Virus record (IMG/VR): IMGVR_UViG_3300025085_000063
Location: 1 to 40,085 of that record
Length of the DNA: 40,085 nt
Source of the DNA: a virus
Strand: one strand, 5' to 3'
Under the pieces are notes generated by a model. The model had not been told where the DNA came from and made no database searches. It saw nothing but the letters and a program-made list of their open reading frames with translations. Of the stretch, positions 2,135-40,085 are shown in pieces. The position numbers and the translations under genes were made by a program. The number at the start of each line of letters is the position of its first letter. Within the stretch, counting starts at the first letter, position 1.

Positions 2135-4397
2135 GTGTGTCTCCTTTTAAATTTAACTGTGGGTAAATGGTTTCCGTAAGTTCTTTTAATTCTTCAGAAC
2201 GTAATCCTATTGAAGTGGATAACCTTAACCACTGTTCGTCTGAGATGTGCTCAAGAATAGCTGGTTGAAAATCACTCTTATTAGTTACTTTAGAATACAA
2301 GTCATACATAAACTCTCTTAGTTTAGGAAAGTCTTTGGCTTGTTCTTCAGTGTTAGTAAAAGTTTTCTCAAAGAAACCTAATGTTTCCCCAGCACGTTTA
2401 GTGACTGCTTCTACAGATAATTTATTGTCTTCTCCTACATCATCAAATGGATAAAGCTGTGTAGGGTTTGCTATAAACTGTTCTACAGTATCAGAAAACT
2501 CTGTTCTTAAATCCATAATCTCTTGTACATCTTTATTAGTTAATTCAAACATGTCATACACATTTTGACCTAAAGCTGTGGCAAGGTCGCCTTTAGAAGT
2601 CATGGCAGCTTTAAACCAAGCACTATCTGTCTTAGAATCTTGTGCCCTTCCCCTCATAATACGCATTAAAACTTCACTAGGTAAATCTAAAGTTCCCCTA
2701 GATATGTTCATAACAGTCTCAGGATTTAAGTCAGGCATCCCAGTTTTAACTTCCTCTATTGCTGTATTAAGTAACTCGACTTCACTCATAGGAAATACAC
2801 TGTGTCCTACGTTTCCACTAGTGCTTATTATAGCGTTTAAATAATTATCATTGTTTGAGTTTTTCAGCCTTCGGTTTCCTAATTCATTCTTAAACTTTTC
2901 TCTATCAGCGTTCCATTGATTTAATGCTGTTCTGTCGAACGAGCTAGGTTGTGGATTAAGTGCCATCCATTGATAAATAGCTTGTCTATCTGAGTTGCTA
3001 AAGTTTCTTGTAACAGTTTTTTGTTTTTGAACATTCTTAAACTTTTTCATAAGAGGATTTGATGATGATGATTCAATACCCTCTTGTTCGTTGAAATAGT
3101 CTTTCCAAAACTGGTCTTGTAATGGGTCTAAAGGAACACCTTTATTTGCTCTTTCAATAGCGTCATTTCTGTTTTTAATCAATTTTGTATAGTCATTATT
3201 ATTTCCACCATGTGTATTTACAAGACTTAACAACTCAGAGTCTGTCATGTTGTTGTATTTACCTACACTCCCTTGTTGTAAAATATGGTCTATTTGACCG
3301 CCCTGACGCAAGGTGTCATCAGCATTTTCTAATGTTTTTAATTTAGCTATTAAGTAACCATAGTTATTTTGACTCATGTTTTCTATTAACAATTTTTTGT
3401 ATTGATTTATTTGTTCAACAGGAATCTTTGTTAAATCTATAGTATCACCAGTAATACCCAATAATTCTTTTGCTTCATCTGATAGAACAGTTTTTGAACC
3501 CCCTATCAATAAAGCTGAATAGTCATTTTGATATCTAGTTTCATTCTTACTTTTTTCTGCTTTTGCTACTGCTGCTTTACCCGCTAAAATACTGTTTCTT
3601 TTATTTATAGCTTTTTCAACGAGTTGACTATCATCTTCTATACCTGAAGTATAAATAGATTTACCATCCCCTCTGTCTGATTTAATAATGTTAAATATAT
3701 TATCAACAGCTGTAAGGGTTTCAGCTTTATCTATCATTACCTCTAAACTAGTTCTAGTTGTCTCATTAATTTGCTTGTTACTTAGTCCACTTGTTTTAGG
3801 AAAAGTATATTTATAAAAATTCATATCAGTGTCTTTAGCCCAAGTCTCTGCCACTGTTGTATATTCAGCTTGTATTTTTTGAGCTGCAGCTGCTGCTCTT
3901 TTGTTAGCATCATCTATTAAATGTTTATCTTGATGTAAGCTCCAAATTGAAGAAAAACCACCTACATAGTATTTACTTTTATCTTCCATGTCAGGAACAA
4001 ATTGCGACATAAATGAATCTAAATCTTGTTCATCCATTTTATAATCAGTGGCTTTTGATTTTAAAAACTCTTGATAAGATTTAGCAGCTGCAAATTTTCC
4101 TAAATGTAAATTAGTGACAGCATTGGTATACATTGATTCTAACTCAGGGTGATTCCCTGATTTAATTTCATCCATCACTGTGTCAGGATTTTTATTGTAT
4201 AACTCCATCATTTTTTTGGAAGCTGTGTCTTGTTCTTCTTGTATTTGATACGCCCCATACTGTTGCATAGCTGGTGTTAATTCTGTTTTTAAAACTTTTA
4301 CAATCTGTCCAAGCTCACTATCAGCTGTTGCCTTTCCTACTCCAGCAAATGTTGTACCAAAATATTTATTACTTACTTTACTTCTATATTCAGCCAT
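2127..4397 (-). CDS. Internal virion protein gp15-like
   Basis: A 756-residue protein, almost the length of T7 gp15 (747). It is hydrophilic, largely helical in composition, and has no signal peptide or membrane segment. It sits between the gp14-like and gp16-like genes. In T7, gp15 belongs to the internal core and is ejected into the cell with gp14 and gp16 to carry the genome across the envelope. The start overlaps the preceding stop by one base (TAATG), with GTAGGA upstream, which indicates translational coupling. The assignment rests on synteny and length, as no catalytic motif is expected. Confidence 0.8.
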   Translation of the reverse strand: MAEYRSKVSNKYFGTTFAGVGKATADSELGQIVKVLKTELTPAMQQYGAYQIQEEQDTASKKMMELYNKNPDTVMDEIKSGNHPELESMYTNAVTNLHLGKFAAAKSYQEFLKSKATDYKMDEQDLDSFMSQFVPDMEDKSKYYVGGFSSIWSLHQDKHLIDDANKRAAAAAQKIQAEYTTVAETWAKDTDMNFYKYTFPKTSGLSNKQINETTRTSLEVMIDKAETLTAVDNIFNIIKSDRGDGKSIYTSGIEDDSQLVEKAINKRNSILAGKAAVAKAEKSKNETRYQNDYSALLIGGSKTVLSDEAKELLGITGDTIDLTKIPVEQINQYKKLLIENMSQNNYGYLIAKLKTLENADDTLRQGGQIDHILQQGSVGKYNNMTDSELLSLVNTHGGNNNDYTKLIKNRNDAIERANKGVPLDPLQDQFWKDYFNEQEGIESSSSNPLMKKFKNVQKQKTVTRNFSNSDRQAIYQWMALNPQPSSFDRTALNQWNADREKFKNELGNRRLKNSNNDNYLNAIISTSGNVGHSVFPMSEVELLNTAIEEVKTGMPDLNPETVMNISRGTLDLPSEVLMRIMRGRAQDSKTDSAWFKAAMTSKGDLATALGQNVYDMFELTNKDVQEIMDLRTEFSDTVEQFIANPTQLYPFDDVGEDNKLSVEAVTKRAGETLGFFEKTFTNTEEQAKDFPKLREFMYDLYSKVTNKSDFQPAILEHISDEQWLRLSTSIGLRSEELKELTETIYPQLNLKGDTLE

Positions 4398-4957
4398 TAT
4401 CCTACACTACTCCCTTGTATTTGCCCTACTTTGTCTACGTCTTTAGGCTTTATATTAATCAAAGAATTAGGGTCTCTTCCATAAGAAAGTCCCGCTCCCG
4501 CAATACTTAATCCAGTAGCGAATACAGATGGTTGTTGTACTGGTTTTGTATATTTACTTAATGTTTGCATATATGTTCCATAAGCTTGTTTCTCTTGATA
4601 ATTAGCTTTACGTATATCAGAATTAAAAGCGTTGGCAAGTTCTATATAATCTGTGTCAGCTTGTCCAGCTAGTTCTTGTACAATTTTTTCTGGATTACCT
4701 AAATTCATGTTTAATGCTTGTGCCATGTTTTTTCTAAATTTATGTTTCTTTGTTATTAGTTTACGTTTAAATTCTCTAGCTGCGTCTACTCTTTCTCCTT
4801 CTATGGATTGCAAATCATTTAAATAAGAAATATTAGAATTTTCTTGTGTAATCTTATTAGACTGTTCTTGTGCTTTTGCTGCTGCTGACGCTTGTTGGTG
4901 TTGTCCAACAGCTCCTACAATCGCTAAAGCTAACTGAGCTTCTGCATAACCACACAT
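4397..4957 (-). CDS. Internal virion protein gp14-like
   Basis: A 186-residue protein beginning Met-Cys-Gly-Tyr, followed by a short Ala/Val/Gly-rich hydrophobic stretch (about residues 7-18) and then a Gln/Ala/Lys-rich helical body. T7 gp14 is similar in length (196) and, as I recall it, also begins Met-Cys with a small-residue N-terminus. T7 gp14 is the ejected protein that inserts into the outer membrane. The ribosome site GGAGATAA lies just upstream, and the gene is packed tightly between the gp13-like and gp15-like genes. Confidence 0.78.
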   Translation of the reverse strand: MCGYAEAQLALAIVGAVGQHQQASAAAKAQEQSNKITQENSNISYLNDLQSIEGERVDAAREFKRKLITKKHKFRKNMAQALNMNLGNPEKIVQELAGQADTDYIELANAFNSDIRKANYQEKQAYGTYMQTLSKYTKPVQQPSVFATGLSIAGAGLSYGRDPNSLINIKPKDVDKVGQIQGSSVG

Positions 4958-4958
4958 A

Positions 4959-5426
4959 TTATTTTATCTCCTTCATCATTAAATAGAATGGCATTTTACC
5001 TTTGCCAAATTGTTCCTCTCGTCTTATTATTTTAAATCCTAAATGTTTAAGCCACTTAATAGACTTGTCATTTCTAACGTCTACATAGTTATATAAATAT
5101 TTATAACCTTTTCCCATTTGTGCCACCCATTCAGGTGATTGTTTTATAAATTCTTTCTTGTAATTAAATAACTCATCACTGGCTAATAACCATGCAACCC
5201 CATAATCTTTATCTAACGAAGGCACGCTACCAAACATGCCTACAACATATTCTTCTTCTGTTCCTATGACACTCCATGTTCTATGTCCTTTTTCTTGAAA
5301 GGGTTGCATAAGTGCTTCTCCAGTTGTCAGTCTATCTGACGCCCAAATTTCATCCTTATCTGCTTGCCTCATTTTAGGTGCAAGATAAGCAATGTCTACA
5401 CTGATTGCTGGTCTTACGTATGCCAT
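4959..5426 (-). CDS. gp13-like protein with acetyltransferase (GNAT) fold
   Basis: 155 residues. The C-terminal half has YLYNYVDVRN followed by WLKHLGFKI, the pattern of the last strands of a GNAT fold. T7 gp13, a virion-assembly protein at this same locus, has a very similar stretch as I recall it (YVWVGN then FLKTIGA). It lies between tail tube B and the gp14-like gene, exactly as in T7. The function is probably virion morphogenesis, and acetyl transfer is not shown. Start ATG has AGGAGAAT upstream. Confidence 0.72.
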   Translation of the reverse strand: MAYVRPAISVDIAYLAPKMRQADKDEIWASDRLTTGEALMQPFQEKGHRTWSVIGTEEEYVVGMFGSVPSLDKDYGVAWLLASDELFNYKKEFIKQSPEWVAQMGKGYKYLYNYVDVRNDKSIKWLKHLGFKIIRREEQFGKGKMPFYLMMKEIK

Positions 5427-7913
5427 TTATATTCTCCTAGAACGTCTGTGGTAGTAACCTTCCACTTCAGCACTAGGAATAAACATAGGTAAGTGTGAGC
5501 TACTCTTTATATCTAATGTAAATAATGTATTTCTACTTTGTACAGGAACAATAATAGTACCTGACGAAATCGCTGGGTTATCCACTGCTCCTGATAAACC
5601 AATAATATAACCATTCATAAATGTGGTATATGTATCTCTATTCTCAGGTGTTACTTCTACTTGGAAAAATCCACTGTCTTCATAGTCAAATGATATAGTA
5701 CGTATCTGATATCTACCTGAAGTAACAGCTATAGCCCCTTGTCCTGAAGCTTCTCTTACGTACTGTGGTGACAGTGTATATTTAGATTCATAAGGTACGC
5801 CTATAATTAAACTAGTGTGGTCTCCTTGTATTGTATATGTTGAACCTGTGGTATTCGTGGCTGTGTAGTTAGCTCCTGTAGAAGCGTTTACAGCTATTAA
5901 TCCTGTCTTAGCTCCATATGGGCTAGTAAATGTAGTAAGGTCAGTAACTGAATCATAAGTACCAGTTGCTGTTGTTTTAAGGTCTACATATACATTATGA
6001 CCTATGGTTGAATCTGCTAAGTCTTGTAAGTCAATACGCAGTAACTTTGTGTCTGTTCCTTCAGCTACAAATAGGTATACAAAACTACGGTCTATCATTC
6101 CACCTATTATTTTAACATTGTCTAGTTGCCATTTAGACCACGCTGTTTGTACTTTCTCACCTCTATCAAAGAAGTATTTGTACATATACATGGTGTTGGC
6201 ATTGGTAGGTGATACAGCTGTTCCTGTAGTGTATGGTGCTGTCTGAGTGTCAGCTGTATCTGAACACAGCACTATCAAAGAATCTTCTGTTGTGTTACTT
6301 AATATTGAATAAGCGTTGTCAGGTATCAAAGTTTGTACCGCAACAGTAACATCTAAACCGTCATTAGTTAATGTATCATTGTCTGAATAATATTCTCTTA
6401 CTGCTGTGTTTGCATTACGTACTTGTGAGAAGTAAGCATATCTACCTGAAGATACAGGTGTTACATCAGCATTATGTGAGAATGTTGATACTTCATTCAA
6501 CACAGCTGAGGTCGGGGTAATTGTCTCAGCTGCTGAAGCGAGTTTATACTGTGATGTGTCGGAGAATAACAGTAAGGTCTCGTTGAATGATATTGAATTT
6601 CTTAAAACGTTTACAGTTGTGCCTGAGGCTGCAACATCTATAACATCTGTATCTAATACTTGTGTTACTGTAGTTGCAAAGAAATTAAAGTAATCAGCAT
6701 TACCTGATAATACTAAGTTCTCTCCAGCTAATATACCTAGTCTATTTTTATAGAATGTAAGGTTCTGTATTTTCTGTCCTACAAATGTAGGGTCAGGGTT
6801 TGTTGTTTCATCCCCAGCGTCTCTTTCTGTATAGCTTTGTTTAGAAAACGTAAATGTCCCATCATTGTTGTTAATAAGAGCGTGTGGCATAGTAGCATCA
6901 TTAAGACCTATACTTGTGTTAGGTGCTATACATTCTTCCCATACACCATTTCCTACGTAGTTAACATAATAATCTGATGTAGTATCACCAGCGTCACCTG
7001 TTACTTTAATCTTATCATTTAACTTTGCATAGTAAGGTAGTTTGGTAAAATCTTGTATCTCATCTTTAACAGCATACAGCTCACTGTTACCAGCACCATC
7101 GTGTGTCTCTACTGTGTAGTCAGTGTTTTGGTCTACTACATAACCACGTAGTGCAGACTGGTGTTCTGTAAATGTAAACTCAGCTGTGACTGCTGAATAA
7201 CTGCTTAAGCCTTGTGTTGTAGTTAGTGTTGCATCAGTATCTGCTCTAGTTAACTTAAATTCTATACTAGAAGCAGAGTCCCAATAAGTGCTGCTTGTAC
7301 CATATCTAAAAATATCTATTAGCTTTGCTGTATCTCTAAACTGTGTGTCATGGTTAGCATCACTACCGTCAGGCATTTGTATGATTGCATTGATACCGTA
7401 AGGTAAATCAGGGTGAGTAAGGTGTATTGCATACTCTCTACCAAAGTTAGTTACCTTAAACACTACATAAAAGTATTCTTCTTTAGCTGCTGTAGTTGTC
7501 CCACTTTGTGCTGGGGTTATAGATTTGTTAGATACAAAAGTAAAATCTGCAATGTTAACCATCTTAAGGTCATTCTTAGGATTGGTAGTTGTAAGATAAG
7601 ACGTGCCATCAGGGTAGCTTACGGTCTTCTCATTGCCTTGTAAGTCAAAGACTCTTACACCACCATTGTAAAATGCAACAATGTATTTATTGTTCTCGTC
7701 TCTTTGTATGTTCCATATCTTTGTAGTGTTAGGGAACACATTTGTACTATCTAGTGTAGCTATATATTCTGATGGTGGGCGTTTACCTAAGCCTTTGATT
7801 ATATTGTTCTGACAATTAATCTGTTCTTCACCTTGATTAATACCACGTTGGGTAGGTGTTTGTTGGCTTACGCCATTCAGGAAGTTAGGTATTGACTGTG
7901 AAACTACTGCCAT
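5427..7913 (-). CDS. Tail tubular protein B (gp12-like nozzle)
   Basis: 828 residues, close to T7 gp12 (794). The N-terminus, with SIPNFLNGVSQQTP and then a Gly-Lys-Arg-Pro segment, is typical of tail tubular protein B, which forms the nozzle of the short tail. The rest is Thr/Ser/Asn-rich and beta-strand-like. The start overlaps the stop of the gp11-like gene by one base (TAATG), with a GAAGGA ribosome site. It lies between gp11-like and gp13-like genes, as in T7. Confidence 0.93.
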   Translation of the reverse strand: MAVVSQSIPNFLNGVSQQTPTQRGINQGEEQINCQNNIIKGLGKRPPSEYIATLDSTNVFPNTTKIWNIQRDENNKYIVAFYNGGVRVFDLQGNEKTVSYPDGTSYLTTTNPKNDLKMVNIADFTFVSNKSITPAQSGTTTAAKEEYFYVVFKVTNFGREYAIHLTHPDLPYGINAIIQMPDGSDANHDTQFRDTAKLIDIFRYGTSSTYWDSASSIEFKLTRADTDATLTTTQGLSSYSAVTAEFTFTEHQSALRGYVVDQNTDYTVETHDGAGNSELYAVKDEIQDFTKLPYYAKLNDKIKVTGDAGDTTSDYYVNYVGNGVWEECIAPNTSIGLNDATMPHALINNNDGTFTFSKQSYTERDAGDETTNPDPTFVGQKIQNLTFYKNRLGILAGENLVLSGNADYFNFFATTVTQVLDTDVIDVAASGTTVNVLRNSISFNETLLLFSDTSQYKLASAAETITPTSAVLNEVSTFSHNADVTPVSSGRYAYFSQVRNANTAVREYYSDNDTLTNDGLDVTVAVQTLIPDNAYSILSNTTEDSLIVLCSDTADTQTAPYTTGTAVSPTNANTMYMYKYFFDRGEKVQTAWSKWQLDNVKIIGGMIDRSFVYLFVAEGTDTKLLRIDLQDLADSTIGHNVYVDLKTTATGTYDSVTDLTTFTSPYGAKTGLIAVNASTGANYTATNTTGSTYTIQGDHTSLIIGVPYESKYTLSPQYVREASGQGAIAVTSGRYQIRTISFDYEDSGFFQVEVTPENRDTYTTFMNGYIIGLSGAVDNPAISSGTIIVPVQSRNTLFTLDIKSSSHLPMFIPSAEVEGYYHRRSRRI

Positions 7914-8515
7914 TAATAAGTCCTTCTAGGTGGTCTGTTAATTATAGAATATGTATTAGCATCACCTTCTAGTATGTTTACATCTTCACTTCTAGAATCA
8001 GACTGCTTAAAGTTATTATAAGCTTCCTGTTCATCTATGCTCATTAGTTCAGATAAACCAGCGTCACCAATAAATCTAGCTGCAAAACGTCTAGCGGCTT
8101 TTACTGTAATATAGCGTCTAGCGTATTCAGGTAGTTGTTCAAATTGTTGTACTAATACAACATCTAATGGTGGGACGATTGTAAAAACGTCAGTGTGATT
8201 ATCTAGGTCATACAGCTTACCATCACGTATTACTACGTTTTGATATCTGTGTGTTGCATGAGCGTCAGCTTGGACGCAGTTGGAAGGTAATGGAATCTTA
8301 CTATCATCATCTATTGAGTAAGTTACATTGTATTCTGTGTTAAAGTTCCAGCCTTCACTTTGTATTGAAAGGCTAGTTTCATCTAAGATATTTATAGCGA
8401 CAGATACATCTACGTTTGTTACGCCGCTAATTGAGTTAACAGGTGCTTCTCCAATAGCAGAGAGCATAGTGTTGATAGCTTGTAACTCGGTAGTTGGTGT
8501 TATTTGTGTTGCCAT
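7913..8515 (-). CDS. Tail tubular protein A (gp11-like adaptor)
   Basis: 200 residues, against 196 in T7 gp11. The N-terminal region (LQAINTMLSAIGEAPVNS) and the later arginine-rich helix (ARRYITVKAARRFAARFIG) are typical of tail tubular protein A, the ring joining portal to nozzle. It follows the capsid gene after a strong hairpin and is coupled to the nozzle gene. Start ATG has TGAGGAAA upstream. Confidence 0.93.
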   Translation of the reverse strand: MATQITPTTELQAINTMLSAIGEAPVNSISGVTNVDVSVAINILDETSLSIQSEGWNFNTEYNVTYSIDDDSKIPLPSNCVQADAHATHRYQNVVIRDGKLYDLDNHTDVFTIVPPLDVVLVQQFEQLPEYARRYITVKAARRFAARFIGDAGLSELMSIDEQEAYNNFKQSDSRSEDVNILEGDANTYSIINRPPRRTY

Positions 8516-22916: not shown

Positions 22917-22940
22917 TTTATCTCCTTGATTATGGTTTAT

Positions 22941-22960
22941 TATCTTATATGGGTACTTTA
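22941..22960 (-). promoter_or_regulatory. Phage RNA polymerase promoter A (SSB)
   Basis: Transcribed-strand TAAAGTACCCATATAAGATA, whose first TAA is the RNA polymerase stop codon. It is identical over 20 bases to promoter B and lies about 25 bases before the SSB start. It fits a T7-type layout with a TATA box at -4 to -1 and an AGA start. Promoter function is inferred from repetition and position. Confidence 0.78.
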
Positions 22961-25408: not shown

Positions 25409-25436
25409 GTATACTCCTTAGGTTAATGTGTATTGG

Positions 25437-25459
25437 TATCTTATATGGGTACTTTAAAA
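25437..25459 (-). promoter_or_regulatory. Phage RNA polymerase promoter B (RNA polymerase gene)
   Basis: Transcribed-strand TAAAGTACCCATATAAGATA. Its TAA is the stop codon of the 83-residue gene upstream. It lies about 30 bases before the RNA polymerase ATG. It would let the polymerase amplify its own gene after first synthesis by the host enzyme. Confidence 0.75.
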
Positions 25460-30660: not shown

Positions 30661-30736
30661 TAAGTAATAAGGAAGGATAGCTTGTCTATATATAGCTAGG
30701 GGTGCACAGGGGTTTTATCTTATATGGGTACTTTAA
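30661..30736 (-). repeat. Copy C of the promoter-tail element
   Basis: Minus-strand copy of the element inverted at 26525-26597. Core TTAAAGTACCCATATAAG, then AAACCCCTGT and CCCCTAGCTATATATAG, differing from D by a few bases and one single-base length change. It lies downstream of the last lysis gene, facing the early genes. The conserved tail may be an origin or regulator site. Confidence 0.75.
30716..30736 (-). promoter_or_regulatory. Phage RNA polymerase promoter C (control region)
   Basis: Transcribed-strand TTAAAGTACCCATATAAGAT, matching promoters A and B exactly through the core. It would transcribe the small membrane ORF and the control region. Unlike the others it does not overlap a stop codon. 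It could also supply primers for replication, as the T7 phi1.1 promoters do. Confidence 0.68.
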
Positions 30737-30818: not shown

Positions 30819-31322
30819 CTATTCTGTGTTTAATGGGGTTACTGTTATTGGGTCTAATAAAATAACATCAGTCATGTCACTATCCCATTGGTATCCTTTA
30901 AATGCGTCCCTATATTTAGTAATAGGTGTGCCATTTGCGTCTTTAAACATGATATTGTCATCTAACAGCTTCTTAACATTACCAGCCCCAAACTGAGCCA
31001 TAGGTAACATTCTTTTTTGTTCAGATTCATCCATATTACGATAGACGTTACTGTTATTCTTAAGCCAGTTATGAGCTCCACCTAAGTAACTTTTCCACAT
31101 TCTGTCTTGTAAATCAGGGTTATTCATTAAATCTTTATCCTCAGGAATGATTATTCCTAATGATTTAGAAGCTTCTTTAATAGTTTGTTTACCAAGTTGA
31201 TAGCGTCCAATATAAGCATTATTGTAACCACCTCGTATGTCATATTTGTTAGAAGATTCAATATGACCTACACGGTCTTTAACATCTTCCCACTCTCTAT
31301 CTGAGTATATCCAGTCGCTCAT
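30819..31322 (-). CDS. Lysozyme/lytic transglycosylase-like protein
   Basis: 167 residues. HIESSNKYDIRGGYNNAYIG, then RYQLGKQTIKEASKSLG, matches the Glu-Ser-Ser and G-x-Y-Q core of SLT-type transglycosylases, with Glu about residue 22 as the likely acid. Such enzymes cut the glycan strands of peptidoglycan. It overlaps terminase by 4 bases (ATGA). It may be the endolysin, or it may replace the N-terminal lytic domain that the gp16-like protein lacks. No signal peptide, so a holin would be needed for release. Confidence 0.68.
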   Translation of the reverse strand: MSDWIYSDREWEDVKDRVGHIESSNKYDIRGGYNNAYIGRYQLGKQTIKEASKSLGIIIPEDKDLMNNPDLQDRMWKSYLGGAHNWLKNNSNVYRNMDESEQKRMLPMAQFGAGNVKKLLDDNIMFKDANGTPITKYRDAFKGYQWDSDMTDVILLDPITVTPLNTE

Positions 31323-32956
31323 ATCCAGCTATCTCCTTTTGGCTCTCTGCCTATGGCTTGTTCCATAAACTTATCTAAATCTTCCTGTAACATTTCTTCT
31401 TTATGTTGGTTATAAGACAATGTTTGGTCTCTATCCATTACTTCTACCCAGTAGTTAGCTGCAATAGCTAAGGCGTCTATTTGGTCATCATGCCTTAGTG
31501 CACCTTTATCCCTTGTTATCCTAGTCATTTGTCTAAATAACTGGTGGTCAGGGTCTAACTGGAAGTCATCTTTGATAAGCTTATCATCAATAACTAACCT
31601 ATGGGTATTCATAATAGGCTCTAATGTGTCTATTATACGCTTCTCTTTCTGTATACTGTGGCGTACTTCCTCTACATTACAAGGATGTATGTCAGCCAAT
31701 ACAGGCTTTAGAAGCTGTGTTGCCATGCCATCACCAAAGTTACTCTCAATGACGATATCATTGACGTCATGTTTCTTAGCAATGTTAGATAGCTTCTTAA
31801 GTGTGTCATCAGAGTATCCACCATCTAGACCACCAATGGCAGTCAGGTACAATACACCGTGTAACATCTTAAGTACACAATAGGCTGTTTTATCTGCCCC
31901 ACGACCAGCGGGGTCAATAGACATAACTGAGCCTTCAAACTCTGTAAATTCGTCGGACATGTATAGGTAAGAAGTCCAATAGTCACCCTTAAGTCCTACA
32001 TTAGGTAACTCAGAGTCAACTGCTTTGATTTGGTCTATACCTGAAGCCCATTGTATTTTGGCTGGAGCTTCTGTCCATGTGCTGCAACCTGAGGCTATAA
32101 TAAGGTCATTAAGCTTCAATGGGTATTTGTTGGCGTCAGATAGACTAGTATCCAACATAAACTGTAAATTAAAGCCTGACCTACCGTATGAGCTTAAACG
32201 CTCCATTAAGTCGATTTCATTAAATCTATCAGGGTCAGTAGGGTCTCCCTCTTTACCGTCCATATCAGCAATTGTAGGAGCTAATTTATGCCCATATCCT
32301 ACCTTTTGTGCTTGGTTAGGAATCAATGCTGACCATATACGTGTCTTGAACCCACGTTCATCTAGGTCATTATACAATGACATCTCTGTTTGAGGTGTTC
32401 CTAGAAAGATAACACGTCCTACTTTAGGCTTTATAATAGCGTCAAACTCTTTTACGGTCTCACTTAAGCGGTCACGCATAAGCTGAGTCTGTGAGTTATT
32501 GGCAGATTCTACGTCATCAGCAATAATAAGGTCAGCCCTAGACCCTGTTAGCTGTCCCGTAATCCCCATAGACTTCACTGAGGGGGCGTGTGAAGCCTGA
32601 GCTGGGGCAACATCAAAAGATACCTTAGAATGTCTTTGACTATCCTTAGGTTGTAGATGTTGTAATAACGGCATTTCTGCAATTAGTCTTTGTGTAAAGG
32701 TACTAAAGTCATCAGCCCTCGTTTTACTAGCTGATACTACCAATATGTTACGCTGAGGGTTCAGCAGTAATTGGTGACATACAAATGCGGAAGTAATCCA
32801 AGACTTTCCTACGCCCCTGAAAGCCTCGATAACAATACGTTTTTCTTTAGATTGTAGATAGTCTGCTATATCGTATTGTATAGGTGTTGGCTCAGGTAGA
32901 TTGAGGTGTTTCCAAGCTAGATACAAGAAGTTCTTAAAGTTATCTATCTTATTCAT
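31319..32956 (-). CDS. terL: Terminase large subunit (gp19-like)
   Basis: 545 residues, against 586 in T7. The ATPase has Walker A FRGVGKS (46-52) and Walker B ADLIIADDVE (141-150). The nuclease half has MSIDPAGRGADKTAY, VIESNFGDG and HDDQIDALA. It powers DNA packaging through the portal and cuts the concatemer. It overlaps the small subunit gene by 8 bases, as expected for coupled subunits. Confidence 0.96.
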   Translation of the reverse strand: MNKIDNFKNFLYLAWKHLNLPEPTPIQYDIADYLQSKEKRIVIEAFRGVGKSWITSAFVCHQLLLNPQRNILVVSASKTRADDFSTFTQRLIAEMPLLQHLQPKDSQRHSKVSFDVAPAQASHAPSVKSMGITGQLTGSRADLIIADDVESANNSQTQLMRDRLSETVKEFDAIIKPKVGRVIFLGTPQTEMSLYNDLDERGFKTRIWSALIPNQAQKVGYGHKLAPTIADMDGKEGDPTDPDRFNEIDLMERLSSYGRSGFNLQFMLDTSLSDANKYPLKLNDLIIASGCSTWTEAPAKIQWASGIDQIKAVDSELPNVGLKGDYWTSYLYMSDEFTEFEGSVMSIDPAGRGADKTAYCVLKMLHGVLYLTAIGGLDGGYSDDTLKKLSNIAKKHDVNDIVIESNFGDGMATQLLKPVLADIHPCNVEEVRHSIQKEKRIIDTLEPIMNTHRLVIDDKLIKDDFQLDPDHQLFRQMTRITRDKGALRHDDQIDALAIAANYWVEVMDRDQTLSYNQHKEEMLQEDLDKFMEQAIGREPKGDSWI

Positions 32957-33161
32957 CTGTGTCGAACGGTAAGTCCTCTAGTATGTTGTTAGCTTTTTCT
33001 ACGATATCAGGACTTGAGTAAGTCTTACAGATATCTAAACATACCTTCATCTCACTTGCAGATATTTCATCACCTGACTTAAGCTTCCTATAAGCATGAG
33101 CTACAAGTAATACAGGTAACTCTTCTACTATCTTTTCTATTTGTTCATTTTGTTCTGTCAT
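32949..33161 (-). CDS. terS: Terminase small subunit (gp18-like)
   Basis: 70 residues, against 89 in T7 gp18. Acidic and helical: EELPVLLVAHAYRKLKSGD, then ISASEMKVCLDICKTY. It is placed directly before terL with an overlap. It recognises packaging DNA and regulates the large subunit. Ribosome site AAGGAGATAA. The assignment rests mainly on position and size. Confidence 0.8.
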   Translation of the reverse strand: MTEQNEQIEKIVEELPVLLVAHAYRKLKSGDEISASEMKVCLDICKTYSSPDIVEKANNILEDLPFDTDE

Positions 33162-33162
33162 T

Positions 33163-33597
33163 TTATCTCCTTACAGCAGCCGAACCAAAATAAAATCCCG
33201 ATACTGCCGCTAGAAAGTGTGTATCAGCGTTAGTTATAACTATACCTGAGAGACCTGTAAACGTTGTAACCTCTTGTGTATAGCCAAATATCCACCATCC
33301 TTCTTTAACTTGCTCTAAGTACATTAGATGCACAGCAATAGATGGGTCTATAAAGACGGCTAGCTTTGGTAAACATATAACAAAGAATACTGCTAATAAT
33401 GCCATCCATCTACGGGTTACACTTTGGAAGTGTCCACCATGATTACGTGCGTCTTGTATGGCTGCTCTATCAACCTCAGCACGTTGTATTAAAAACTTTT
33501 GTTGGTCTGCATTATCTTTTTGTTTAGCTGACCACAGGCTTAGTACACCTGTAAGTAAACTACTACCTAACATAGTAATAACTTCAAAAGGTATCAT
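33163..33597 (-). CDS. Holin, three-transmembrane type
   Basis: 144 residues. Hydrophobic stretches are IPFEVITMLGSSLLTGVLSL (2-21), WMALLAVFFVICLPKLAVFI (about 64-83) and FTGLSGIVITNADTHFLAAV towards the C-terminus. The charged KQKDNADQQKFLIQRAEVDR segment after the first is typical of the 3TM (GTA-type) holin family. It makes membrane lesions that free the lytic enzyme. The start shares a TAATG with the preceding gene. Confidence 0.75.
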   Translation of the reverse strand: MIPFEVITMLGSSLLTGVLSLWSAKQKDNADQQKFLIQRAEVDRAAIQDARNHGGHFQSVTRRWMALLAVFFVICLPKLAVFIDPSIAVHLMYLEQVKEGWWIFGYTQEVTTFTGLSGIVITNADTHFLAAVSGFYFGSAAVRR

Positions 33598-33758
33598 TAC
33601 TTACTCCAAAAGTATCCAGTAATAATGGCGGCTATACCACCTAACCACATAAGAAAACTAACAGCTCCTTTACCTTTAGCTACGTCTTCTTGTAACGATT
33701 CTACTTTTGTCTCTAGTCGGTCTAGCTTTTCAGCTAATTGCTCTAATGTAACTTTCAT
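33597..33758 (-). CDS. Coiled-coil plus membrane helix protein, 53 aa (XhlA-like)
   Basis: An amphipathic helix (KVTLEQLAEKLDRLETKVES) with leucine spacing, then FLMWLGGIAAIITGYFWSK, one membrane segment. This layout is that of XhlA-type lysis or membrane-anchor proteins. It overlaps the desaturase stop by 4 bases (ATGA) and the holin start by one base, so it is part of the lysis cassette. Confidence 0.65.
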   Translation of the reverse strand: MKVTLEQLAEKLDRLETKVESLQEDVAKGKGAVSFLMWLGGIAAIITGYFWSK

Positions 33759-34501
33759 TTAAGAAATATCCTCTCTATAAACCATGCGGGTGGGTCTAGT
33801 TCCCACCATTTGTGACCGTGTCTGTAGTCTTTTGCAATAGTGTGGTGATAATTATGCCAACCTTCACCCCAGCTTATAAGAGAAGTCAGGGGACTGTTGA
33901 CCGCCGTGCAGTCTTTGTTGGGTTTAACCACAATATAACCAAATTGTTTCATATGTGGTATGACACCAAACGCTCCCGCTGCTTGATATACACATGCTGC
34001 TGGGAATGAAAACGCAAATATTCCTAATAATGGGTCTATTGCGTACAATATAAATATATAACTAAGTAATAAAGTCCAATAATGCTTAGTTATAAACATA
34101 TAATCTTTGTCTTTAATAATATCCTTTACCATATCTTTAGGTACAGTAATAGGGTCATACAAGGTAAGCCATGCTCTGACATATCCTATTCTTTCAGGGG
34201 ATTCATTGTCTTTATCACTACCACTGTACATATGATGGTAGCGGTGCATAGCTGTCCATGATAATGGACTACCAAATGCTGGTATGATTGTAAGATACTT
34301 TAAAATTTTAGCTTTGACAGGAGTTGTCTCAAAGCTTCTATGAGCCATAAACCTGTGTATGGCAATGTTTGTACCAAAGATATTAACAAACGCCCAAGCG
34401 AATAAACCATATACAATATACTCAGGGAAATAATAACACCCCGCTATTGCTACTATATGATTTATTAATGCTAATAATTGTACTAACCTTGCATGTTTCA
34501 T
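33755..34501 (-). CDS. Fatty acid desaturase 1 (delta-9-type, three histidine boxes)
   Basis: 248 residues from the ATG at 34501, which overlaps the preceding stop as ATGA. A GTG six bases earlier is possible. Histidine boxes: HRFMAH (H49-H54), HRYHH (H86-H90) and HNYHH (H216-H220). GEGWHNYHH is the delta-9 acyl-CoA/acyl-lipid desaturase signature. Four hydrophobic segments place it in the membrane. The boxes bind the diiron centre that inserts a double bond with O2. No electron-donor domain is fused, so host ferredoxin or a similar donor is needed. All catalytic His are present. Confidence 0.92.
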   Translation of the reverse strand: MKHARLVQLLALINHIVAIAGCYYFPEYIVYGLFAWAFVNIFGTNIAIHRFMAHRSFETTPVKAKILKYLTIIPAFGSPLSWTAMHRYHHMYSGSDKDNESPERIGYVRAWLTLYDPITVPKDMVKDIIKDKDYMFITKHYWTLLLSYIFILYAIDPLLGIFAFSFPAACVYQAAGAFGVIPHMKQFGYIVVKPNKDCTAVNSPLTSLISWGEGWHNYHHTIAKDYRHGHKWWELDPPAWFIERIFLK

Positions 34502-35181
34502 GTCCACCCCAGTTTTTTAATTACCCAAACAAGTGGGTCAAACTTACAATGTTTTAATTTAGGTTCGATATGATGTTGTTTATGATATGATTCTGAAAAC
34601 GCTACAGGGTACATATAAGGTACATCTTTTACTTTACCTAAATGACACATAATGCCTGTAACTAACATTACCCAAAAGGTAGTCATAGCTACTGCTGTTG
34701 CCCAAGTTAAAAACCATTCAAATGGTAAGACTAACAAAAGAATAGCATTAAACATGTAAACCAACATTGTTTCATGTTTAGTTAAAAATAATTGCCATTT
34801 ATTTCTTAGTCTATCTGTAACAAGTTTGATATTAGATTCTTGTTCATGTGTTCTAAATATAATATTAAACCAGTTTTTGTACTTAGGACTATGAGGGTCT
34901 TTATCTGTATCTGAATGTTTATGATGATTTCTATGCCATGCACTGTACGATATAGGTGTACCTATCATAGCTGTTAGTGATACTACACTCATTATGTTTT
35001 GAAACCATACTGGTGGATTCCATAGACTATGTGTAGCCCATCTGTGTATAAATAAGCTCATTGTAAATTCTAGTAAAAAGTAAAAGAGTATGTATGTGTA
35101 TAGAAGTTGTAGCCAAGATAGTGCTACAAAAGAATATAATGCTAGTAAGAAGTAAATTCCATATAATAATGTAAGTGCCAC
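34498..35181 (-). CDS. Fatty acid desaturase 2 (three histidine boxes)
   Basis: 227 residues from a GTG start with GGGAA seven bases upstream. Histidine boxes: HRWATH (H46-H51), HRNHH (H83-H87) and HKQHH (H200-H204). Hydrophobic segments lie at about 2-40, 62-82 and 138-178. It is clearly related in plan to desaturase 1 but strongly diverged, especially in the third box, where SESYHKQHH replaces GEGWHNYHH. A different substrate or bond position is plausible, and hydroxylase activity cannot be excluded. It lies between adhesin-region genes and desaturase 1. Confidence 0.88.
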   Translation of the reverse strand: MALTLLYGIYFLLALYSFVALSWLQLLYTYILFYFLLEFTMSLFIHRWATHSLWNPPVWFQNIMSVVSLTAMIGTPISYSAWHRNHHKHSDTDKDPHSPKYKNWFNIIFRTHEQESNIKLVTDRLRNKWQLFLTKHETMLVYMFNAILLLVLPFEWFLTWATAVAMTTFWVMLVTGIMCHLGKVKDVPYMYPVAFSESYHKQHHIEPKLKHCKFDPLVWVIKKLGWT

Positions 35182-35182
35182 A

Positions 35183-35677
35183 TTAGTATTCCCATGTCAT
35201 AAGTTTTAAATTATTATCTAAATCTTGTGTAGTCAAGTTTCCTAAACAAACATTATCTGTAGTAGCTTGTGTAAAGTAAGTATCAATTTTAGAATCTTTA
35301 ATACATTCTAATGCAAATTTACTACCACCTAATGATTGAATCCAATCTTTATTAGCTTGATGAAATTCAGATGTCCATGTCCATGCTTTGCTGTTGTTTA
35401 TTTTGCCTACTAATGCATTACGCCAAGTATATGTATTGTTTTCATACATTCCATGTATATATAAACAAGGAACATCATCTTTAGAAACAATAACGTTATA
35501 ACCAAAATTACTAGCATTTATCATAGTTTCTATGTGTTGTTTTAATTCTGTGTCTGATTTGCTTAAATGTTCTGAGGCAACTGTTCCAGATTTTATATCA
35601 TCTAAACTATCTGCATATATCTGATTAAAAGTATCGTCTATTGTAAATTCGTTTATTCTTGTAAAAGTATAAGACAT
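35183..35677 (-). CDS. Hypothetical protein in adhesin/desaturase region, 164 aa
   Basis: MSYTFTRINEFTIDDTFNQI, then IVSKDDVPCLYIHGMYENNT, then a Trp-rich KAWTWTSEFHQANKDWIQSL. Mixed strands and helices with a GNAT-like feel, but no motif I can name. It overlaps the tail-associated gene by one base (TAATG) and precedes the desaturases by one base. It may belong to the adhesin or to the desaturase unit. Confidence 0.55.
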   Translation of the reverse strand: MSYTFTRINEFTIDDTFNQIYADSLDDIKSGTVASEHLSKSDTELKQHIETMINASNFGYNVIVSKDDVPCLYIHGMYENNTYTWRNALVGKINNSKAWTWTSEFHQANKDWIQSLGGSKFALECIKDSKIDTYFTQATTDNVCLGNLTTQDLDNNLKLMTWEY

Positions 35678-36231
35678 TATGTTTCTACTATTTTAAATCC
35701 TGTTGATGAACCATTAGCACCCATTAAAGTGTCAGCACTCATAGTTGTATTTGGTGAGCCTGAAGCTGCACTAGACCAATGATGAAATTTAGCTCCTGTT
35801 ATTCCATGTTGTGATAAACTAGCATCTGCTCTGTTAAATCTTGTTACAGTACTACCATTTGTAATTTCAATGTATGTCCAAGCTGTATAACTAGTACTAG
35901 TTTTTAAATGAAATCTCATTATACTGCTATCTAAATATACCTCATCTATTTCATTACTTGAGTTAGCGATAGCTGTGCTAGAAATACTTCCGTAATTACC
36001 AACATCTACACCTCTCTGATTGCTTTTAACACCACCAGTAGCTACTGTTATAGTTGTATTAGCGTGTTCAGTACCAGAAGATGTTCCATAAAAATCTGCT
36101 GCTAATTGTATTTCACCACTACTAGGTGCATTACCCTCGCCATGATATTCTGATAAAGAATGAGGTGCAGAGCCACCAAACTCAGCAGCTATTTCACTTA
36201 GTTTTATTTGACCACTACTTTGTAAAGCCAT
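35677..36231 (-). CDS. Tail-associated adhesin-like protein, 184 aa
   Basis: The N-terminus ALQSSGQIKLSEIAAEFGG, followed by PHSLSEYHG, is a pattern I know from small tail or adhesin proteins of marine phages. The rest is Ser/Thr/Gly-rich and beta-strand-like (ITVATGGVKS, STGFKIVET). It overlaps the tail-fibre end by 17 bases. It probably contributes to receptor binding beside the fibre. Confidence 0.65.
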   Translation of the reverse strand: MALQSSGQIKLSEIAAEFGGSAPHSLSEYHGEGNAPSSGEIQLAADFYGTSSGTEHANTTITVATGGVKSNQRGVDVGNYGSISSTAIANSSNEIDEVYLDSSIMRFHLKTSTSYTAWTYIEITNGSTVTRFNRADASLSQHGITGAKFHHWSSAASGSPNTTMSADTLMGANGSSTGFKIVET

Positions 36232-38269
36232 TTTTCAATTCCTTAATTTGTTCTTTTAGTTCTTTTATACAGTTAATTAATAAACCATGAATTGCATCGT
36301 ACTGGACTGTTTTATATTTCTTACCATCAAGTAATTTAAATTCTTTTTCATGGACTGCTTCAGGTAAAACTTTTTCTAAATCTTGCGCAATAACACCAGC
36401 AGATTTTTCTCCATCATACCTTTTAAATGTAACACCTCTGACTTCATCTATTTTATCTAGTGCATTAGGTATCATTTGAACATCTGTTTTTAATGCAATA
36501 TCAGATGGAACAGTAGTTGAATAAGCAATAACATCACCATCTACATGTAAGTCACCATCAGATTCTATTAAAGCTTTTCTTGAACCATTTACATAAAATC
36601 CCATGTCATTAGCAGTGTGACCATATTCTATTAAACCAGAAGATGAACTATCTGCATCTCCGAAAAAAATTTTACCAACAGATGAAGTTCCTGATTTAAT
36701 TAACAATTCAGTATCTCCACTATTGTTTATTTCAAACTGTTTAGTGGGAGTAGCTTGTCCTATACCTACTCTGTTGTTTGTTGAATCTATTTTTAAAGTA
36801 GTTGTATCTACAGTTAAATCACCACTTATAGTAAGTGATGAAAGTGTGCCAACAGAAGTAATATTAGGCTGAGATACAGTAGCTAGTGTTCCTGTAATAT
36901 TTCCTGAAGATTGAATAGTACCTGTAATATTAACATTACCTGTACCTGTAATATCATTTGAATTTAAATCTAAATCACCGCCTAATTGAGGTGTAGTATC
37001 TTGTAACACGCTAGATATTTCTGTACCACTAGCTGTCGCTACTAGCCAAGCAGAGCCATCATAAACTTTTAGTTTGTCTACTGTTGTATTGAAATACAAG
37101 TCACCAGCATTTAATGCGTCACCGTCATTGTCTACTGTCGGGTCAGAAGCCTTAGCTCCTAAATATATGTCATCAAAATTATCTGCTGCTAACTCAGCCG
37201 CTGTTTGAGCTGCCTGAGCTGCGGTCGCAGATGTAGCTGCATTACTAGCTTGAGTTGTTGCTGTTGTAGCCGAAGTCGCTGCGTTAGTCTCTGATGTCCC
37301 AGCATTGGTCGCCGAAGTTGAAGCCGCAGACGCACTAGACGCCGCATTGGTTTCACTTGTGGACGCCGTACTAGCAGAAGAAGCCGCCGCTGTAGCAGAT
37401 GAAGCTGCCGCTGTAGCAGATGAAGCCGCATTGGTTTCACTGGTATTAGCATTAGTAGCAGATGTAGCTGCGTTTGTTTCGGATGTACTAGCATTACTAG
37501 CAGATGTAGAAGCTGTAGATGCAGACGAAGCTGCGTTTGTAGCTGATGTTGAAGCATTTGATTCGGATGTTGCAGCATTAGAAGCTGAAGTTGAAGCTGC
37601 TGACGCACTGGCTGCTGCATTTGTTTCAGCAGTTTCTGCATTAGTCTCAGCTGTTTCAGCATTAGTCTCAGCAGTTTCAGCCGCTGTTTCACTAGCTGCT
37701 GCTGCGGTCGCACTAGCTGCCGCTGCTGTAGCCGAAGATGCCGCATTGGTTTCACTAGTAGAAGCGTTGGTCGCACTGGTTGCTGCATTAGTTGCCTGTG
37801 TTGTAGCCTGAGCTAACTGAGAAGACATAGCTGTTTCTGACCAGTTTTTAGTAGCTGCGTCTTGAGCTGATGTTGGGTCAGCAACGTTAGTTAAACGTTT
37901 ATTTTGTGCGTCCCATTGGAAGTTAACGTTAGATAACTTAATTACGTCACCAGCGTCATCAATAGCCTCTTGAGACATAAAGAACGCTTGGTCACTATCC
38001 GTGTCTAAATCTGATTCTGTTAGTACTGAACCTGACGCATAATCTACGAGCTTTGTGCCCTGACTTGTGGTTCTACGGATTTCTATAGCTGTAGAAGAAG
38101 CTGGAGCTGAGGTAAATGTAACCTGTGTACCAGCACCATTAAATGTAAATGCTGTAGTTGCTACACCATCTATAGTAATAGTGACATCTTCTTGTGCCCT
38201 ATAGCTAAATGGTACTGAGTAAGTGGTTGTGCTACCGTCACCTGTGTACCTTACAAAACTGTTTGCCAT
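36215..38269 (-). CDS. Tail fibre with heptad shaft and S74 chaperone domain
   Basis: 684 residues. Residues 1-150 resemble the T7 gp17 N-terminal, tail-attaching domain (FVRYTGDGSTTTYSVPF...). Residues 155-364 are thirty consecutive Ala-first heptads such as AATSATN and ASTSETN. Then follow beta-rich repeats (SGNITGTLATVSQ, NITSVGTLSSLTISG). The last 96 residues are a peptidase S74 intramolecular chaperone with Ser589 and Lys594 (SDIALK), which should cut itself off before Ser589 after trimer folding. Promoter F lies upstream. Ribosome site AGAGGAAA. Confidence 0.9.
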   Translation of the reverse strand: MANSFVRYTGDGSTTTYSVPFSYRAQEDVTITIDGVATTAFTFNGAGTQVTFTSAPASSTAIEIRRTTSQGTKLVDYASGSVLTESDLDTDSDQAFFMSQEAIDDAGDVIKLSNVNFQWDAQNKRLTNVADPTSAQDAATKNWSETAMSSQLAQATTQATNAATSATNASTSETNAASSATAAAASATAAAASETAAETAETNAETAETNAETAETNAAASASAASTSASNAATSESNASTSATNAASSASTASTSASNASTSETNAATSATNANTSETNAASSATAAASSATAAASSASTASTSETNAASSASAASTSATNAGTSETNAATSATTATTQASNAATSATAAQAAQTAAELAADNFDDIYLGAKASDPTVDNDGDALNAGDLYFNTTVDKLKVYDGSAWLVATASGTEISSVLQDTTPQLGGDLDLNSNDITGTGNVNITGTIQSSGNITGTLATVSQPNITSVGTLSSLTISGDLTVDTTTLKIDSTNNRVGIGQATPTKQFEINNSGDTELLIKSGTSSVGKIFFGDADSSSSGLIEYGHTANDMGFYVNGSRKALIESDGDLHVDGDVIAYSTTVPSDIALKTDVQMIPNALDKIDEVRGVTFKRYDGEKSAGVIAQDLEKVLPEAVHEKEFKLLDGKKYKTVQYDAIHGLLINCIKELKEQIKELKNGFTK
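37178..37807 (-). repeat. Thirty-unit 21-bp (heptad) coding repeat in the tail fibre
   Basis: Thirty in-frame seven-residue units, each beginning with Ala and built from Ala, Ser, Thr, Asn and Glu. Some are identical (AETAETN three times running). DNA units vary at third bases, so this is an old but regular array. Unit gain or loss would keep the frame and change shaft length. Confidence 0.85.
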
Positions 38270-38287: not shown

Positions 38288-38309
38288 TTCTTCTAAGACG
38301 GGAACTTTA
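38288..38309 (-). promoter_or_regulatory. Phage RNA polymerase promoter F (tail fibre)
   Basis: Transcribed-strand GTAAAGTTCCCGTCTTAGAA. Its TAA is the gp16 stop codon. It differs from the core by GTTCCC in place of GTACCC, and shares CCCG-TYTT-AGAAG with promoter E. It lies about 20 bases before the tail-fibre ribosome site. Confidence 0.62.
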
Positions 38310-40085
38310 CTTTTTCAATATTGTCTTCAATCTTGCTTCGTAATCTTTCTCGTTGTCTTTTAAAGCTTTTGTTAATATTTCATTTACTTTTAACATTTCC
38401 TCATAAAATGGTGTAATTTCTTTGTTCTTAACTTTAGCGTAAGCATTTTGAATAACCCAATCTTTAGCTAAAGATTCATAAATAGAATGTATTTCTTTAA
38501 CAACTGCTTCGTCAGGGCGTTTACCACCTATTTGTTTCTTAGGATAGAACCTGTGATATGGACTCATAGGGTCATCAAACATATCAGATAAAGTGTCTTC
38601 GATTGTTTTTCCATCTATTTTCATTTCTCCAGCTAACTGTAAACGCAAATCAGCAAATGTTTGTGTTCTATCAGGCACAATATTTTTTCCTGTATTAGGG
38701 TCTATATAGCTAGATACGTTATAATCTAGTAAATCCCCTATTTCAATATCACCTGTAATACCTGAGGTACTGACTGTAGTGTCTATTCTAGGGAAATCAG
38801 AAGCCACTTCTAGATATGACTCTAATCCTTCTTGTGTTTTAAATACATCTTTAACATCTTCAGCTGAGAATTTAAATATATTGTCCCAGTCGGTAGCACC
38901 ATAAAAAGGTACAAAACCTTGAGTTTTATTTTTTATTTTATAAGTTCTACCACGTTTAGGTTGAAAAGCTGTGCCTGTGATTTCTTCATATAAAGCCATT
39001 GGCGTTGATTCATACCATCTTTCTATTTCTGTGTTTATCTCAAAATCAGCATCTGCCAGTTCTCTTGTTGCTCTTCTAAATCCTGTAGCAGCTGGCATTG
39101 TTTTAGCAGCAGTAGAACCAAAGAATTTTTTGACTGTTCTTGCTGCATCTTTTCGCTCTCGTTCATTTCCAAATTGTCCTAACAATCCTTCTAACACGTC
39201 AAAAGCTTGGTTAGTAACTAATTGGGAGTTTAGTGTCACGTTTAAAACTGATAGAAGTCCCCCATTAACGTGTGAAACAGTGTCCCAAAATTTTTCATTA
39301 GCCTCTGTATGTAATGGGTCATTCCATATATGCCCTAAATCTTTAGTAACATCTCCTACTCTAGCTGTGAATTTTAGCAGTCCAGTAAGTGGATACAACC
39401 TATCAAATTTCACAGTACTTCCATCTTCTAATACTATAGAATCTGATTTATCAGTGTCACTGTGATGTCCTATTAATCTACCTGAAGAATACATAGTCGC
39501 TGACCAGCCTATTAAAGCTATTCCTAAAGCTTGTGTGCTTTCAGCATGATGGCGTACATATGGGTCATCTGAATTTAACATCTCTTTGTATTGGAAATGA
39601 AGTTTGTTTAGAATGGGCGTATGATGCCACATAAATCTATTTAACTGTACAGGTGTTTTAATAAAGTTAATTCCAAGTGATGTTTTCAACAATGGATTTC
39701 TGTAAGCCCAATCTAATATATACTGTGATACTCCACCTGTATTACCAAATATTGGGTCTTTAGCTGTTGGGGCTAGTGGATTAATTAAATCATCTGTAAA
39801 AGTATCTCTACGGGCTCTTTGGGTAGGGTCAAATATTAAACTTCTAGATAAGTCATCCATTGATTCTAATTTTGAATTAGAAAATGTGTCAGTAGATACA
39901 AAATTACCAAACTCATCTTGATACTCATTCCATAGTTTTTGATAGGTTTCTGTAAATTCATCTTTAGTAGCTTTCTTTTGTACTTCTAATCTTTCAATTT
40001 CAGATTTATAATATTCAATCCTATCTTTTTTAGTCATGAACATGTTAATTCTTTGTATTCCTTCTTTACGCCATGCAACACTTGG
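38307..40085 (-). CDS. Internal virion protein gp16-like, C-terminal 592 residues (cut by window end)
   Basis: An open frame enters from the window end and stops at 38307. A Met at 40043 is not its start, as 14 more in-frame codons lie upstream. Stretches such as RNPLLKTSLGINFIKTPVQL, LIGWSATMYSSG and a charged helical C-terminus fit the membrane-active end of an ejection protein. It continues the protein begun at 1-2134. Direct joining of the ends shifts the frame by one base. Promoter F starts in its stop codon. Confidence 0.8.
   Translation of the reverse strand, partial: PSVAWRKEGIQRINMFMTKKDRIEYYKSEIERLEVQKKATKDEFTETYQKLWNEYQDEFGNFVSTDTFSNSKLESMDDLSRSLIFDPTQRARRDTFTDDLINPLAPTAKDPIFGNTGGVSQYILDWAYRNPLLKTSLGINFIKTPVQLNRFMWHHTPILNKLHFQYKEMLNSDDPYVRHHAESTQALGIALIGWSATMYSSGRLIGHHSDTDKSDSIVLEDGSTVKFDRLYPLTGLLKFTARVGDVTKDLGHIWNDPLHTEANEKFWDTVSHVNGGLLSVLNVTLNSQLVTNQAFDVLEGLLGQFGNERERKDAARTVKKFFGSTAAKTMPAATGFRRATRELADADFEINTEIERWYESTPMALYEEITGTAFQPKRGRTYKIKNKTQGFVPFYGATDWDNIFKFSAEDVKDVFKTQEGLESYLEVASDFPRIDTTVSTSGITGDIEIGDLLDYNVSSYIDPNTGKNIVPDRTQTFADLRLQLAGEMKIDGKTIEDTLSDMFDDPMSPYHRFYPKKQIGGKRPDEAVVKEIHSIYESLAKDWVIQNAYAKVKNKEITPFYEEMLKVNEILTKALKDNEKDYEARLKTILKK

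Follow-up and report, generated by a model that had tools for sequence, protein, structure and literature searches.

Gene organization of the desaturase locus

The window analysed here, 40,085 bases long, is an entire virus record. Its minus strand carries two overlapping genes, desA and desB, which are predicted to encode membrane diiron desaturases. The features of the locus are as follows.

36215 to 38269, minus strand: tail fibre gene, flanking the cassette upstream (PHROG tail fiber protein, E value 7e-36)
35677 to 36231, minus strand: gene for a 184-amino-acid adhesin-region protein, between the fibre gene and g164, with same-place homologues in most podovirus-type relatives
35183 to 35677, minus strand: g164, encoding a 164-amino-acid protein, directly upstream of desA; the constant partner outside T4-like phages
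34498 to 35181, minus strand: desA, GTG start, encoding DesA (P0002; 227 amino acids), a predicted membrane diiron desaturase
35046-35029, 34935-34921, and 34584-34570, minus strand: histidine boxes of DesA, with the ninth histidine at 34644-34642
34498 to 34501, minus strand: ATGA overlap read from the sequence, with the desB start inside the desA stop
33755 to 34501, minus strand: desB, ATG start, encoding DesB (P0001; 248 amino acids), a predicted membrane diiron desaturase
34357-34340, 34246-34232, and 33856-33842, minus strand: histidine boxes of DesB, with the ninth histidine at 33955-33953
33597 to 33758, minus strand: gene for a 53-amino-acid protein with a coiled coil and a transmembrane segment, XhlA/holin-like by eye; its start overlaps the desB stop
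33163 to 33597, minus strand: gene for a 144-amino-acid membrane-like protein, a lysis-region neighbour (phrog_38283, E value 8e-6)
30819 to 33161, minus strand: downstream block of TerS (32949-33161), TerL (31319-32956), and endolysin (30819-31322)

The order on the minus strand is tail fibre, desaturases, 53-residue protein, 144-residue protein, TerS, TerL, and endolysin. Since one tail-fibre gene and two adhesin-region genes lie upstream of desA and desB, and holin-like, terminase, and endolysin genes lie downstream, the pair does occupy the site originally predicted, between adhesin genes and a lysis cassette. The PHROG matches of the downstream block are strong (terminase, 1.5e-117; endolysin, 1.7e-10). 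Those of the 53-residue protein are weak, one being to a haemolysin at an E value of 0.1, and the 144-residue protein has homologues in 23 phage records, mainly of pelagiphages, next to or inside annotations of "peptidase M15."

The longest ORF of DesB begins with a GTG at 34507, which would make the overlap with desA 10 bases long. However, an ATG is kept at the position matching 34501 in 97 of 100 relatives, and this codon was therefore taken as the start, which leaves the 4-base overlap (ATGA) that had been proposed. GTG is found at the aligned DesA start in 52 of 75 relatives. The 4-base ATG overlap also occurs at 99 junctions between adjacent phage desaturase genes, and desA and desB are probably translationally coupled.

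The TerL, RNA polymerase, and TerS proteins are 84%, 73%, and 67% identical, respectively, to those of Pelagibacter phage HTVC109P, and the next-best matches of TerL and the RNA polymerase are other HTVC019P-type isolates on "Candidatus Pelagibacter." PHROG matches were obtained for the RNA polymerase, single-stranded DNA-binding protein, primase-helicase, DNA polymerase, ribonucleotide reductase, portal, capsid, and tail tube. Judged by these core genes, which are nearest to those of isolated members, the virus is an HTVC019P-type pelagiphage (Pelagivirus) and T7-like, as had been supposed. Because those isolates grow on "Ca. Pelagibacter," the host is most likely SAR11; the hosts of the related contigs discussed below are likewise those suggested by their phage relatives. 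Gene order and analogy with T7 would place the desaturase genes in the late region, and gene order suggests that they are expressed late.

Three near-identical 21-base elements, TAAAGTACCCATATAAGATAA, are located at 22940-22960, 25436-25456, and 30715-30735, at the starts of gene blocks, where none would be expected by chance; they are probable phage promoters. The element TAAAGTACCCATATAAGATA(A/C) occurs three times, before the RNA polymerase gene, the single-stranded DNA-binding protein gene, and the early region, and a search of the window found no copy at the desaturases. At each end of the record, ORFs are cut off where the sequence stops (window positions 1-2146 and 38307-40085). If the given ends are joined into a circle, the reading frame is broken, and the junction may lack a few bases or have a few too many.

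Sequence motifs, predicted folds, and selection

DesB and DesA score 54.2 and 37.8 bits, respectively, against Pfam family FA_desaturase (PF00487; gathering score, 29.7). The histidine boxes are HRFMAH, HRYHH, and GEGWHNYHH in DesB and HRWATH, HRNHH, and ESYHKQHH in DesA, and both sets follow the pattern HX3-4H, HX2-3HH, and H/QX2-3HH. A ninth histidine outside the boxes (H183 in DesB and H180 in DesA) is likewise invariant. The nine-histidine diiron ligand set of SCD1 is thereby complete in both proteins, with the aligned histidine columns invariant or nearly so. The original prediction of two complete tandem membrane desaturases, free of frameshifts, thus agrees with the ORFs, their strand and coordinates, the Pfam scores, and the boxes. 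The two proteins are only 23% identical and differ in their third boxes, so their divergence, which had also been noted, is real.

In phmmer comparisons, DesB matched human SCD1 (4zyo; E value, 6e-11) and mouse SCD1 (9e-10), whereas the match of DesA to mouse SCD1 was weak (0.007). AlphaFold models were built with alignments of the window and locus proteins (AF2 mean pLDDT, 95.8 for DesA and 93.3 for DesB). SCD1 structures were the best Foldseek matches of both models (TM scores, 0.75 for DesA and 0.80 for DesB, the latter with human 4zyo), and the SCD1 fold spans the whole chain in both, in line with the structure proposed as a check on the prediction. Taken together, the motifs and models support the assignment of DesA and DesB as intact SCD-like membrane diiron enzymes. 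The E values, the predicted structures, and the fact that about 100 further contigs conserve the genes exclude a chance origin.

Some members of PF00487 hydroxylate or ketolate other lipids. Given this breadth of the family, the divergent third box of DesA, and its lower similarity to SCD1, the proteins could be other oxygenases (a hydroxylase, an acetylenase, or a carotenoid-type ketolase/hydroxylase) rather than simple desaturases. We consider this rather improbable: SCD1 is the best fold match of both, the DesA model scores far higher with SCD1 (Z score, 18.6 over 224 residues) than with AlkB (8.0) or the Scs7 hydroxylase (about 5), and DesB has the canonical GEGWHNYHH motif. The reaction details of SCD1 do not carry over, however. 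The position aligned to its second-shell asparagine (N265), which contacts iron through water and is not a defining feature of PF00487, is glycine in DesA and DesB, and its RRGFFFSHVGWL segment, in our reading part of the CoA-side cap, is replaced. Bond position, substrate, and acyl carrier are therefore not transferable from SCD1. Against the NCBIfam profile for the DesA family fatty acid desaturase (NF049918), which calls for a score of over 400 bits, the proteins reached 52.3 and 23.1 bits, and they are not assigned to that family.

Decay of the histidine boxes in close relatives had been named as evidence against active enzymes. All three boxes are retained in 128 of 128 distinct phage sequences, and the median dN/dS values (0.118 for B and 0.150 for A) support purifying selection on both proteins. 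On these grounds, we reject the view that the genes are pseudogenes or in decay.

Distribution, array size, and gene context

In a tblastn search of 50,697 phage records, relaxing the E value to 1 still gave DesB no matches beyond an Acinetobacter phage and pelagiphage Mosig EXVC030M, and DesA matched only Mosig at 1e-5. The tandem arrangement was not found in any phage isolate searched, and the cultured relatives HTVC109P, HTVC168P, and Eistla gave no desaturase match. In IMG/VR, a search for the same pair, as had been suggested for marine podovirus genomes, found it repeatedly. One scan yielded at least 80 loci and another 65, and further loci came from queries with genes three and four of the larger arrays, for a total of at least 104 distinct contigs with a desaturase ORF. 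The pair is widespread and common in uncultured marine phages. Its description as unusual calls for qualification, and two viruses from cryopeg brine with five copies each have been published (PMC7300359). Intact metabolic genes with viral neighbours that are dispensable in cultured relatives qualify as auxiliary metabolic genes, and we regard desA and desB as such.

Array size was counted in 69 arrays with at least 700 nucleotides of contig on both sides. Two genes were present in 38 of them, three in 13, four in 8, five in 2, and one in 8; the eight single genes belong to other families, neither A nor B. No complete array with DesA or DesB has fewer than two desaturases, and the tandem is in this sense obligate. 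A maximum-likelihood tree with 122 rows places A (support, 95/99) and B (100/100) each in a separate phage-only clade on long branches and supplies the phylogeny proposed for both proteins. The sampling of cellular relatives was guided by DesB-like patterns and covered DesA relatives less well; phage-only status therefore appears firmer for B than for A. The distances of A and B correlate (Mantel r, 0.59; P = 0.0005), and partner changes also occur: identity to the window protein is 95% for B but 57% for A in one contig (L019), and 76% and 42%, respectively, in another (L068).

These counts bear on the idea that the two genes are redundant copies that raise overall unsaturation under cold or stress, with no specific role for either. 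Cold and salt tolerance has been proposed for the desaturases of Arctic brine phages (PMC7300359). Redundancy would tolerate the loss of one copy, but neither A nor B stands alone in complete arrays, and with 23% identity and separate deep clades, a dose effect seems unlikely.

Immediately upstream of the array, a g164 homologue is present in 55 of 73 contigs; the other 18 are mainly T4-like arrays, the rest being the L074 group and Mosig. No match to g164 was found in Pfam, PHROGs, PDB, or the phage isolates, and the first three of these results led us to reject it as a known enzyme. In two T4-like contigs (L037 and L203), arrays of four and five genes adjoin a sigma-70 region 2 (gp55-like) protein, as well as a calcineurin-like phosphoesterase and an SMC/RecN-type ATPase that correspond to gp47- and gp46-like genes; the closest isolate for the ATPase is Mosig (64% identity). 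Another contig (L065) is from a different phage type, with a capsid related to those of Rhizobium phages and pelagiphage HTVC103P. As the T4-like arrays lie beside gp55-, gp47-, and gp46-like genes, the lysis-side position is not constant, and it looks like an insertion site.

The original prediction named holin action, membrane fluidity, and lysis timing as properties that the phage may tune. In a reading centred on lysis, unsaturation would adjust the membrane for the adjacent holin-like proteins and so set lysis timing. The T7-like relatives do carry the pair directly upstream of, and overlapping, the XhlA-like gene. A specific role of this kind is nevertheless quite unlikely, since the T4-like relatives have the same A and B genes beside gp55-, gp47-, and gp46-like genes instead of lysis genes, and cultured HTVC019P-type phages manage without desaturases. 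Alternatively, the enzymes might modify lipid A or a lipid receptor at the host surface and so block the adsorption of rival phages or the loss of progeny, travelling with the tail-fibre genes. The g164 and fibre-region genes directly upstream in the 55 contigs fit this proposal, as does the desaturase of Mosig, which is located near tail-fibre genes and genes with an aspartyl/asparaginyl hydroxylase domain. Yet the T4-like arrays lie away from fibre genes, extra genes are often found downstream of fibres, and g164 has no recognised function; we judge a surface change to be very unlikely as the explanation.

Several other arrangements were seen. In a T4-like marine phage (L203, positions 3051-6708, and L204), the stretch between UvsW-like and gp55-like genes holds five desaturase genes in a row, all diverged from one another. 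A 44-kb T4-like contig with four tandem desaturases (IMGVR_UViG_3300048023_000188; L197) encodes a separate 427-amino-acid diiron membrane protein at 927-2210 on the minus strand, which is AlkB-like by eye and scores 101.6 bits against PF00487. On a 172-kb viral contig (L217, positions 5247-7920), a desaturase adjoins a beta-ketoacyl synthase (PF00109); nearby ORFs resemble AcpS and acyl carrier protein by eye only, with no Pfam match, and the region is a possible phage fatty-acid synthesis module.

Host, proposed function, and relation to known systems

The SAR11 order was recognised through two genomes that exactly match four of four 16S probe sequences for SAR11. A desaturase above the cut-off was detected in 50 of 147 genomes of this order, one per genome and of another class, with the boxes HEGAHG, HLSHH or HLAHH, and HLEHH in the six of the fifty that were read (L227 to L232). 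No desaturase was detected in the remaining genomes, about two thirds of the 147, although genome incompleteness may hide some genes. The phage-type profile, run against 397 SAR11-order genomes, found nothing except one marginal, partial match of 99 residues. Capture of the genes from SAR11 was therefore rejected for the sampled genomes: the SAR11 desaturase aligns with A and B at one box only, and the profile found nothing convincing. FabA is present in 54 of 58 SAR11-order genomes, and the unsaturated fatty acids of the host thus very probably come from FabA-dependent synthesis. We infer that the phage brings a different, O2-dependent desaturation route to SAR11.

We consider it probable that desA and desB encode two active membrane desaturases which carry out complementary reactions and change the acyl chains of the infected host. 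Both would be small acyl desaturases with a diiron centre, would belong to the SCD/DesC superfamily, and would be translated in a coupled manner from a single late mRNA. With O2, and with host ferredoxin or a comparable carrier supplying the electrons, they would introduce double bonds into host acyl chains; no ferredoxin, rubredoxin, or cytochrome b5 Pfam match was obtained among the window proteins scanned, a set that covers the small ORFs in part. The substrate would most likely be pre-existing membrane lipids, so that unsaturation could shift without new fatty-acid synthesis. The lipid context of the desaturase beside the beta-ketoacyl synthase in another virus also counts in favour of this function. 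A and B would be kept together by different reactions, in position or substrate and possibly sequential. Action at different positions or in series, as first proposed, is compatible with the data, and the arrays of three, four, and five genes strengthen it. Membrane remodelling, virion assembly, surface change, and lysis may each be how the phage benefits.

In cyanobacteria, DesA to DesD carry out serial desaturation, and the arrays of two to five genes resemble this by analogy. A further suggestion, which we hold to be doubtful, is that marine phages evolved sets of their own, exclusive to viruses, in which two to five minimal desaturases form an assembly line for polyunsaturated or otherwise multiply oxidised acyl chains in SAR11. 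If it is true, a new lipid chemistry would be confined to infected members of this group, the most abundant bacteria of the ocean; desaturases of the phage class are absent from most SAR11 genomes. A polyyne-type multi-desaturase cluster, prompted by Burkholderia and Bradyrhizobium relatives, was rejected; those loci have a single desaturase, and no polyyne-type cluster surrounds the phage pair. If the pair works as we infer, SAR11 phages remodel the membrane of the ocean's commonest cell by means of enzymes that the host mostly lacks, using O2 in place of the host FabA route. Infected cells might then leave a lipid signature that could be searched for in sea water, and desA and desB are a compact system, open to cloning, for testing why lipid genes are carried by phages.

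The phage proteins share with SCD1 (PDB 4zyo, 4ymk, and 6wf2), an acyl-CoA delta-9 desaturase, the four-helix membrane fold, the nine-histidine diiron set, and the box order. They differ in length (227 and 248 amino acids versus 298 to 322 residues in the solved chains), in sequence (16 to 25% identity), and at the second-shell asparagine and the RRGFFFSHVGWL segment. The nearest cellular relatives found are desaturases of Bdellovibrionota and Alphaproteobacteria metagenome-assembled genomes (L117, L118, and L119), about 30% identical, which belong to neither of the phage clades. One of these, a Bacteriovoracaceae contig (L118, positions 3866-5304 and 6130-6360), has two overlapping desaturases in tandem with an acyl carrier protein nearby. 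The second is 56% identical to that of Mosig, which may reflect either gene transfer or an unrecognised element.

Among phages, lipid desaturases have been reported from cyanophages (Roitman et al. 2018, ISME J 12:343, as cited in PMC11480375 and PMC7300359). These are also phage-borne membrane desaturases that act as auxiliary metabolic genes, but their hosts are cyanobacteria. The cyanophage enzyme is reportedly a delta-9 desaturase acting on C16 chains, and we know of no description of cyanophage desaturases as tandem sets. Desaturases are also known in Lake Baikal Nitrospirota phages (PMC7678222), and a stearoyl-CoA desaturase is present in a pelagimyophage predicted to infect "Ca. Fonsibacter" (PMC7029224). 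The latter and Mosig are SAR11 phages, as ours most likely is, and the Mosig protein is 27 to 29% identical to A and B; they differ in their T4-like genomes and gene context and, in Mosig, in the single gene. A further parallel comes from Arctic cryopeg-brine and sea-ice viruses, which have multiple desaturases, five copies each in two viruses, under purifying selection, with a structural match to 4ZYO and in clades without microbial members (PMC7300359). All four properties are shared with the present pair. The Arctic viruses have other hosts and habitats and are not T7-like pelagiphages, and tandem order is unstated in that report. The open-licence literature gave no account of a tandem pair in T7-like pelagiphages. 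Phage desaturases, even five per virus, are already known, and what appears to be new is their occurrence as a tandem pair in a T7-like pelagiphage.
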